DNA of 64,000 nucleotides from Inquilinus sp. KBS0705 (GTDB lineage Bacteria > Bacteroidota > Bacteroidia > Sphingobacteriales > Sphingobacteriaceae): positions 2,046,001 through 2,110,000 of the forward strand of contig VCCI02000001.1 in assembly GCA_005938025.2 (NCBI GenBank), in the 5' to 3' direction. The notes beneath the pieces are model-generated. The model made no database searches. It was not told the origin of the DNA and saw only the letters and a list, made by a program, of their open reading frames with translations. A program made the position numbers and the translations under genes. Shown piece after piece: positions 20,726 to 23,020 of this stretch (position 1 is the stretch's first letter; each line of letters opens with the position of its first letter).

Positions 20726-20737
20726 AGTTGGCGAGTC

Positions 20738-20884
20738 GACTCACCCCGAATGCGCTTCGCTGTTCGACCCTCTCTCCGCAAGCGGAACGAGGGTGAAAAG
20801 CTCTTTTTTAATCCTCGTTATATTTAACCCTCTTTGTGCGCAGCAAAGAGAGGGTCGACGAACGCAGTGATGTCGGGGTGAGTC
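20738..20884. repeat. dispersed inverted repeat, GACTCACCCCGA arms
   Basis: Outer arms 20738-20775 and 20848-20884 share GACTCACCCCGA and the CGACCCTCTC core as inverted copies. Each arm holds a smaller palindrome: ACCCTCTCTCCGC...GAGGGT (20767-20794) and ACCCTCTTTGTGC...GAGGGT (20827-20855). The right half is repeated at 22851-22910. The whole of 20554-20932 contains only such repeats and no gene. Confidence 0.75.
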
Positions 20885-20924
20885 AACGGCGCAGAGGCAT
20901 AACTGACTAACACACCCCTGCCCC

Positions 20925-20932
20925 CTCTCAAG
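20925..20932. repeat. target-site duplication of element A, left
   Basis: CTCTCAAG directly left of element A. It is identical to 21827-21834 directly right of it. Confidence 0.85.
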
Positions 20933-20964
20933 GGTAACTATATATGAGTTGGGACAAGGAAAGT

Positions 20965-21099
20965 TTAGAATATTTTATAATAGAAATGGGAAAGTAAATA
21001 AACTATAGAAGCACCAATTATAAATAATAATCCATGCTTACGCATGTCTTTTAAAGCTTGTGCTTTTTCTGCTTTACGTTCTTCTGTTTCTTCAATCAT
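20965..21099 (-). CDS. 44-residue membrane microprotein (element A passenger)
   Basis: An ATG-initiated 44-codon frame. It has a charged N-terminal half (MIEETEERKAEKAQALKDMRK) and a single hydrophobic helix (GLLFIIGASIVYLLSHFYY, about 23-41). This amphipathic-then-transmembrane composition is unlike random translation and is typical of real membrane microproteins. It points outward toward the left end of element A. I do not know a family for it. Confidence 0.5.
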   Translation of the reverse strand: MIEETEERKAEKAQALKDMRKHGLLFIIGASIVYLLSHFYYKIF

Positions 21100-21138
21100 G
21101 TTGATAAGGTTTATCGAATATACAAAAACATATAATAA

Positions 21139-21285
21139 GCCACCACATCCACAAGGTGGGTCAACTATTGTCCTGAAAAGTACGAGAAAAGTGAGTTAAA
21201 AATACACGGTACTTTTGATGAAGTGATTAAGGCTTCGTTTTTAGGGAAACCGCCTGAAAAGGCAAAGGGCAAGAAAAGTAAATAA
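21139..21285 (+). pseudogene. orphan 3' coding fragment in element A
   Basis: The frame is open from just after a stop at 21136-21138 to TAA 21283-21285 and has no usable start near its beginning. It reads WVNYCPEKYEKSELKIHGTF followed by DEVIKASFLGKPPEKAKGKKSK, a composition typical of small Bacteroidota proteins with a basic tail. It looks like the C-terminal part of a small gene whose 5' end was lost. A GTG at codon 29 is the only in-frame start candidate. Confidence 0.4.
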
Positions 21286-21316
21286 TGATTATATTTAGGC
21301 CACAAGTGACTTAAAT

Positions 21317-21796
21317 ATGAAAAAACTCATCTTTATTGCATTATTGTTAATAGTATCCATAAAATCTATTGCACAAGGTGGAAACGATAATATAAGCCAA
21401 AGAGACTCTATCGAATTAATTAAAGCATGGAATGTATTCAAAAAAGAATTATTCAGTAAGGACATCAATGCTTTAAAATTGCTTTCATCCAAGATAGTTT
21501 CCGGGAAATGTATGTTGATGCCTATCGACCCTAATTGCAACTCATTAACCTCGCCAGATAAACTGTTAGGCCTTTTTTTTAAGGAAATGTTTCCGAGCTG
21601 TCGTAGAATTATTCTTACAGACAAATATCATCTCGCCGTATACAGTTCTATAAAAGATAAAGATATGAAGATAAAATATCCGACACAGTTTCAGATTTGG
21701 TTTACAAGTAAGTCGGAGCCTGGCTATCAATTTGCATTTATATTTGAGAAGATCGCAGGAAAATTTAAGTTTTCTGGTTTAGATAGGATGCCCTAA
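21317..21796 (+). CDS. secreted protein of unknown function (element A passenger)
   Basis: A 159-residue protein with a clean Sec signal, MKKLIFIALLLIVSIKSIAQ (cleavage after AQ). The mature part is alpha/beta, with an early WNVFKKELFSKDINALKLLSS helix pair, two Cys residues (VSGKC and DPNC), and a beta-rich end (QIWFTSKSEPGYQFAFIFEKI). It might be an NTF2-like or lipocalin-like scaffold, but I do not recognise a family. It lies wholly inside element A, ending 30 bp before the right terminal repeat. Confidence 0.72.
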   Translation: MKKLIFIALLLIVSIKSIAQGGNDNISQRDSIELIKAWNVFKKELFSKDINALKLLSSKIVSGKCMLMPIDPNCNSLTSPDKLLGLFFKEMFPSCRRIILTDKYHLAVYSSIKDKDMKIKYPTQFQIWFTSKSEPGYQFAFIFEKIAGKFKFSGLDRMP

Positions 21797-21827
21797 ATCT
21801 TTGTCCCAACTGATATATAGTTTACCC

Positions 21828-21835
21828 TCTCAAGA
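21828..21835. repeat. target-site duplication of element B, left
   Basis: TCTCAAGA, identical to 22794-22801. It overlaps element A's right duplication (21827-21834) by seven bases, which shows that B inserted into A's duplicated target. Confidence 0.88.
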
Positions 21836-22793
21836 GAGTAATAGCCCATGAGTAGACAGATTTTTTTTGTATATTTATGCAAATGAATGTAAGCGAAGTA
21901 TTTACAAAGTTTTCAAGTCAGGGAACTTGTATTCAGCATTTGGAGGAACTACGATGGCAGGGAGAGCCTCAATGTCCTTATTGTAATAGTAAACAGAGCA
22001 GTCATCGAAAAGACACCTACCGCCATCAATGCAATAATTGTAATAGCAGTTATAGTGTTTCAGTAGGGACAATTTTTGAAGATACGAAGCTGCCTTTGTT
22101 TAAATGGTTCTTAGCTATCAGCCTAATGTTGAATGCTAAGAAAGGATTATCGACATTACAATTAGGCAGAGATATCGGGGTTAACCGCAAAACTGCCTGG
22201 TATCTGCAAATGCGTATAAGGAAAGCTATGCAAGAGGGTGATGATAGTGATCTTTTTAAGGGAATCGTAGAGGTAGACGAAACTTATATAGGTGGTGCCC
22301 AGCGAAATCATTCTAAGCAAAGGCGGTAGGAAAGGCGCGAAAGCGGCTTAAATTTCACTGGGATGCAGCACAAAAAAGCAGTAATCGGTTTGTTAGAGCG
22401 ATCGGGAAGAATAAAGCTGGAGGTACTTGAAAAAAACACACGGCAAGACTATAAAACCCATCATTGAGCAAACGGTAAGTAAGGAGGCTCGTTTGGTAAC
22501 TGATGGATTTGGTGGATATTCGGGCCTTGATAAACAGTATAAAGAACACCAGGTGTTGAACAAAGAAAAAGAAGAGTACGTGCGTGGTGAATATCATACA
22601 AATACCCTTGAAGGTTTTTGGACACTACTTAAGCGAGGCATTTATGGCCAATATCATAAGGTTTCAATTAAGCACCTTCAAGCCTATCTAAACGAATTTA
22701 CATTTAAATATAACCACAGAGATAATAAGTCAAATTTCAACCTGCTTCTCAACAGAAGTTTAACACCATCTGTCATATGATGGGCTATTACTC
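21836..22793 (+). mobile_element. element B: IS1595-family (ISXO2-like) insertion sequence
   Basis: A 958-bp element with terminal inverted repeats that begin GAGTAATAGCCCAT at both ends and match again at GACAGAT (about 22 of 26). It is bounded by perfect 8-bp duplications TCTCAAGA, the size typical of the IS1595 family. It carries one transposase gene, now broken. Perfect duplications together with a decayed gene suggest an insertion no longer able to move itself. Confidence 0.9.
21877..22780 (+). pseudogene. ISXO2-like transposase, disrupted by a stop and a frameshift
   Basis: The N-terminal part (21877-22329) has a zinc ribbon (CPYC...CNNC), a helix-turn-helix region and the first catalytic Asp (VEVDETYIGG). 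TAG at 22327-22329 stops it. The same frame then continues recognisably (QHKKAVIGLLERSGRIKLEVLEKNT) to about 22440. There, near a seven-A run, the frame changes by +1 into KTHGKTIKPIIEQTV...LVTDGFGGYSGL (second Asp) and TNTLEGFWTLLKRGIYG (Glu region), ending at 22780. All DDE parts survive, so the damage is recent. Confidence 0.88.
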
Positions 22794-22801: not shown

Positions 22802-22850
22802 AGGAAGATATCTTTCTTCGCAATGACGCCCGGTAGTATAATGGGAGTTC

Positions 22851-22910
22851 ACCCTCTTTCCGCAAAGCGGAGAGAGGGTCGACGAACGTAGTGATGTCGG
22901 GGTGAGTCAA
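22851..22910. repeat. dispersed repeat, further copy of the 20827-20887 unit
   Basis: ACCCTCTTTCCGC...GAGAGGGT followed by CGACGAACG-AGTGATGTCGG and GGTGAGTCAACGG closely matches the right half of the inverted repeat at 20738-20884. The gap from element B to the arabinofuranosidase gene (22802-23020) contains this and a CGCAATGACG half-site, and no gene. Confidence 0.75.
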
Positions 22911-23020
22911 CGGAGCGGAAACATGACAGCACCCATTGAGAAATCAAAATAAAAACAATAATTGTTAAAATTACACTTATTAATATTTTTTGTAGTTTTA
23001 GTGTGCCAATACAACCATCA

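Follow-up and report, generated by a model that had tools for sequence, protein, structure and literature searches.

Element A, a probable cargo-bearing internal-deletion derivative within an IS1595-family transposon group of Bacteroidota

Element A occupies positions 20933-21826 (894 bp) of the window, that is, of the whole 64,000-nucleotide stretch of DNA analysed here, and has imperfect inverted repeats at its ends. On its left side, the first copy of an 8-bp target-site duplication, CTCTCAAG (20925-20932, plus strand), is followed by a 27-bp terminal inverted repeat (TIR), GGTAACTATATATGAGTTGGGACAAGG (20933-20959, plus strand). On its right side, the second TIR, which reads GGTAAACTATATATCAGTTGGGACAAAG as its reverse complement (21799-21826, minus strand), is followed by the second copy of CTCTCAAG (21827-21834, plus strand). 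Both copies of the duplication are identical at 8/8 positions, and the TIR arms, compared over 25 nt, are 92% complementary, the right end having one extra A with respect to the left. Three reading frames lie between the TIRs: an outward-directed 44-aa ORF on the minus strand (20965-21099), possibly a cargo gene or a remnant, in which a single membrane segment is apparent; a 5'-truncated accessory gene on the plus strand (21172-21286), whose translation PEKYEKSELKIHGTFDEVIKASFLGKPPEKAKGKKSK runs to a stop and whose junction at 21172 falls at about codon 12; and a 159-aa cargo gene in an intact frame, with the signal peptide MKKLIFIALLLIVSIKSIAQ, also reading outward (21317-21796, plus strand). 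The stops of the 159-aa and 44-aa ORFs are found 30 nt and 32 nt, respectively, from the corresponding element end, which places both stops about 5 bp or less from the TIRs, a spacing shared by many other ends in the group described below. No transposase was found inside A, either in the ORF list or by tblastn. The preliminary description had proposed a transposase-less element with good TIRs and a perfect 8-bp duplication, containing a 44-residue ORF, an orphan fragment and a secreted-protein gene, and all of these features are indeed present.

Element A is followed by element B (21836-22793), an IS1595-type element with the ends GAGTAATAGCCCAT, which differ from the 27-bp consensus of A, and with an 8-bp duplication, TCTCAAGA, that is one base offset from that of A, indicating that the same short dyad (CTCTCAAGA) was struck twice. 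The transposase of B is broken by in-frame stops or a frameshift. The pair formed by A and B is flanked, at about 20728-20905 and 22848-22920, by an intergenic repeat (GACTCACCCCGA...GACCCTCTCT.../...GAGAGGGTCGACGAACGCAGTGATGTCGGGGTGAGTC) with many copies across the genus. The gene upstream of A is conserved in most of 41 genomes searched; no clean empty site could be read in these genomes, in which the intergenic part aligned to the genus-wide repeat alone.

When A was used as a query against 60 related genomes, the matches were mainly to its two ends, which in many cases faced each other at a distance of 1-5 kb; apart from the ends and the accessory-gene remnant, these genomes yielded no further A-like DNA. 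A is single-copy, with no second copy in its own genome, and no match was obtained in the plasmid records searched. The ends were then scanned in 150 congeneric (Mucilaginibacter) genomes with the pattern GTAACTATATANNNNTTGGGACAA, allowing at most 2 mismatches and using the reversed pattern as a control. The pattern was found at 119 places, versus 8 for the control, and 56 of the 150 genomes were positive. The TIR consensus derived from this family is GGTAACTATATATCAGTTGGGACAAAG. A scan of public genomes also detected exact A-type ends in Pedobacter, Chitinophagaceae, Cytophaga, Tenacibaculum and unclassified Bacteroidota. Exact ends are likewise present on three contigs labelled Methylococcaceae, Nostoc linckia and Phycisphaerales (L136, L142 and L145), and these records from outside Bacteroidota may reflect horizontal transfer, or contamination or binning error.

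Altogether, 40 two-ended elements were recovered, A included. Among the 38 in which the duplication could be assessed, it was 8/8 in 29, 7/8 in 3 and lower in 6, and the exact 8-bp duplications abut the GG of the TIR. Many of the elements are full-length relatives that encode an intact IS1595-family transposase of about 309 aa. This enzyme matched NF033547, the NCBIfam model of IS1595 family transposases (E=5e-59), and PF12762 (E=3.8e-42), its Pfam matches being Zn_ribbon_IS1595 and DDE_Tnp_IS1595. The IS1595 type that had been assigned to A is thus upheld by full-length relatives with the same ends, and the search with these ends, which had been suggested as a check, returned many copies with 8-bp duplications, varying cargo and full-length IS1595 relatives. 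A transposase gene was undetectable by tblastn in 13 of the 40 elements, including A, and a few others retain fragments of it; the elements lacking it measure between 184 bp and 3.2 kb. One metagenome-assembled genome of Bacteroidota holds a two-copy MITE with A-type ends (L146:994-1186, 193 bp, and L148:1859-2042, 184 bp), whose interior is a REP-like hairpin. Since these two copies, 79% identical throughout, are found at different sites with different duplications, transposase-less units of the group have moved.

The choice of target was analysed at 28 non-redundant sites, where the 8-bp core is A/T-rich, by comparing the complementarity around the centre of the duplication with that of shuffled pairings. 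Over 16 bp the complementarity was 100, versus 70.3 ± 7.6 for the shuffled pairings (p = 0.0004), and over 24 bp it was also above the shuffled value (p = 0.0002); given that the shuffle corrects incompletely for shared site types, this preference for dyad targets represents a lead. The target CTCTCAAG was reused in A, L026 and L100, with the variants CTCTCGAG in L098 and CTCTGAAG in L171. The insertions in L023, L025 and L028 lie in a dyad, TGTCAA-N6-TTGACA or GTAAAA..TTTTAC, and a similar target sequence is found in L094 and L096. The gene downstream of such dyad targets encodes a protein that begins like MKTRYLFPHWSR and is followed, in L028, by a gene for an XRE-type regulator. The dyad in front of this gene type may be an operator that serves as a hot spot for insertion.

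In 16 of 16 transposase-bearing elements examined, the end of the transposase gene adjoins or overlaps the start of a small basic-protein accessory gene. This accessory gene comprises about 43-55 codons, and its product mostly follows the pattern M-A-K-K-K-x-E-P-K-x-R-x-E-x-Y...GT[FL]-[ED]-x-[VM]-I-K... From position 21172 on, A shares 82% DNA identity over 90 nt with the copy of this gene in L034; A therefore keeps the gene from about codon 12 onward, while the upstream part of the parent, transposase gene included, is absent. Judging from this alignment, the orphan fragment of the preliminary description represents the accessory gene's 3' part and is a deletion scar. With its junction within the accessory gene, A points to an internal deletion of a full-length element and not to an assembly from passengers. 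Thus, of the earlier notion of a unit reduced to passengers, the lack of a transposase stands, but the restriction to passengers does not, since a truncated piece of the accessory gene was kept. The full-length ancestor would have carried cargo, transposase gene, small accessory gene and further cargo, in this order, between 27-bp TIRs, with cargo optional on either side; the deletion would have taken the transposase gene together with roughly 11 codons from the start of the accessory gene, and would have spared both TIRs, the 44-aa ORF and the intact secreted-protein gene. We consider it probable (about 0.85) that A is a non-autonomous, cargo-bearing internal-deletion derivative within an IS1595-family transposon group of Bacteroidota.

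Other explanations of the locus differ widely in probability. That the repeats and the duplication arose by chance in ordinary intergenic DNA would agree with A being a single copy, and with nothing else; it was rejected on the excess of the end pattern over its control in the congeners and on the 29/38 exact duplications, and is extremely improbable. A derivation from element B, or mobilisation by it, is suggested by the immediate proximity of an IS1595-family element, the duplication of which is offset by one base from that of A, and by a few left-end bases that agree in register, a resemblance to which the preliminary description had drawn attention. However, this link proved weak: in the family of A (consensus NNAGTTGGG) the ATGAGT part varies, the ends of B are different, and its broken transposase shares only 40-51% identity with the enzymes encoded between A-type ends. 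Its ends and its transposase place B in another IS1595 subgroup. B as the parent is refuted by the full-length relatives with A-type ends, and a role for B is very improbable.

A more serious question is whether A moved after losing its transposase gene or became transposase-less where it stands. In the latter case, a complete transposon was inserted by its own transposase, the gene of which was then deleted, and A is a relic with an open cargo gene. The single copy, with nothing A-like elsewhere, counts in favour of this course and against A having moved after the loss; the deletion evident from the truncated accessory gene and the existence of relatives with a partial transposase gene (L035, L036 and L108) also agree with it. 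On the other hand, the perfect duplication, the near-consensus ends and the intact cargo frame suggest a recent insertion, all of the transposase gene is cleanly gone instead of gradually eroded, and the group has many transposase-less members with perfect duplications. Decay in place has a little under an even chance. Mobilisation of A in trans by an IS1595 transposase is plausible. The genome itself contains one intact IS1595 transposase (domain at G000:C2:223624-224082, in L023), the only other IS1595 copy being the broken element B. The element holding this transposase has TIRs that match those of A at 93% over 28 nt, and it is on this ground, the sole intact resident transposase lying inside an element with matching ends, that trans-mobilisation appears credible. 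The ends of A would still be recognised, and a transposase of the resident type would move A in trans. The accessory fragment of A resembles the type of L034 more than the one in the resident autonomous element; the resident transposase therefore need not belong to A's parent. The one-base insertion in the right TIR was counted against the preferred reading, and between movement after deletion and deletion after insertion the balance is nearly even.

Elements of this kind have precedents. Passenger-carrying IS1595 elements, the transporter IS, were described by Siguier, Gagnevin and Chandler in 2009, as cited in passages of PMC3129680, and the same passages describe transposase-less MIC and MITE derivatives that are activated by a related intact IS. 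Transporter IS share with the full-length relatives of A an IS1595 DDE transposase with a zinc ribbon, 8-bp duplications and passengers unrelated to transposition. A itself carries a passenger but lacks a transposase, with neither the zinc ribbon nor the ISXO2-like DDE domain of an autonomous IS1595 element, whereas its full-length relatives have the anatomy of a transporter IS. The group of A adds the conserved accessory gene of about 45-55 aa behind the transposase gene and, frequently, a gene with a HEPN motif. In MIC231 (IS231, Bacillus cereus), transposase-less IS ends enclose cargo, and a related intact IS is believed to activate them in trans (PMC3129680). A has the same anatomy, IS ends and cargo with no transposase, but derives from another IS family and retains an accessory-gene remnant, its trans-activation being putative. 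As in an IS1595 MITE, A has TIRs and a target duplication and no transposase; in contrast to the short, non-coding and multi-copy MITEs, it is larger (894 bp), occurs once and includes an intact cargo gene that codes for a protein, the 159-aa ORF. With an 8-bp duplication and TIRs common to elements that encode the IS1595 transposase, A is, by its anatomy, a non-autonomous passenger-carrying IS1595 element, MIC-like, of a widespread kind already recognised. Its novelty had thus been overstated, the transporter IS, MIC and MITE categories being described in the passages of PMC3129680 cited above. The literature searched gave no account of IS1595 in Mucilaginibacter.

The packing of cargo against the ends was assessed by counting outward ORFs of at least 60 aa whose stop lies 24-34 nt from the element end, at 80 ends and at interior control positions. 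Such stops were found at 23 of the 80 ends, versus about 1.1% of the control positions, and the 159-aa ORF of A is among the 23, the 44-aa ORF being below the 60-aa cut-off. Homologues of the 44-aa ORF were sought in 150 congeners and none was convincing (E>0.05 throughout), so that this ORF, which is also below the length cut-off, may be a remnant; an LSM domain was rejected for it, the Pfam match (E=0.084) falling below the cut-off. No family was found for the 159-aa protein in Pfam and NCBIfam, and nothing significant was found for its homologues in Pfam. It shares 25-32% identity (E 1e-7 to 1e-3) with a family of exported proteins of about 170 aa in six congeners, and is, by these alignments, a divergent member of this family of the genus. 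The 3-kb loci around the six homologues lack A-type TIRs, so that these homologues look chromosomal. An AlphaFold2 model of the single 159-aa sequence was unusable (mean pLDDT 41), and its order of three helices followed by four strands is a hint at most.

Among the cargo of other elements are three SocA/Panacea antitoxin-like proteins, RnlA/RnlB-like domains and one DUF3825 protein, besides many small proteins, membrane or secreted, without assignment. A further protein family, encoded in 12 elements (L026, L028, L034, L094-L098, L100, L103, L109 and L110), has an invariant RxxxAH motif, which in most members reads R-N-x3-A-H, and its gene usually adjoins the transposase gene. When its members were scanned singly against Pfam, nothing significant was found. 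The motif is what we take to be the HEPN signature, and the family is accordingly a putative HEPN family. Two elements in two species, L023:1999-5244 and L025:1521-4049, share insertion site and orientation, and have the transposase gene, the accessory gene and the upstream cargo in common; the cargo between accessory gene and TIR differs, an apparent replacement of cargo in place.

By itself, A adds one non-autonomous cassette, and the wider group is of more interest than A. This group shows IS1595 elements carrying small accessory genes (toxin-antitoxin-like, HEPN-motif and small membrane proteins) throughout Bacteroidota, and its transposase-less derivatives cover the whole size range between MITEs and 3-kb cassettes. 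It could tentatively be proposed, as a possibility that we regard as rather unlikely in its full form, that A-type ends define a modular cargo platform of Bacteroidota, in which outward passengers have their stops against the TIRs, cargo is swapped at a fixed insertion (L023/L025), a transposase gene is accompanied by an accessory protein and often a HEPN-motif gene, A/T-rich dyads such as operators or hairpins serve as targets, and A is a trans-mobilised cassette. The group represents a tractable system for how simple insertion sequences gain and exchange passenger genes.
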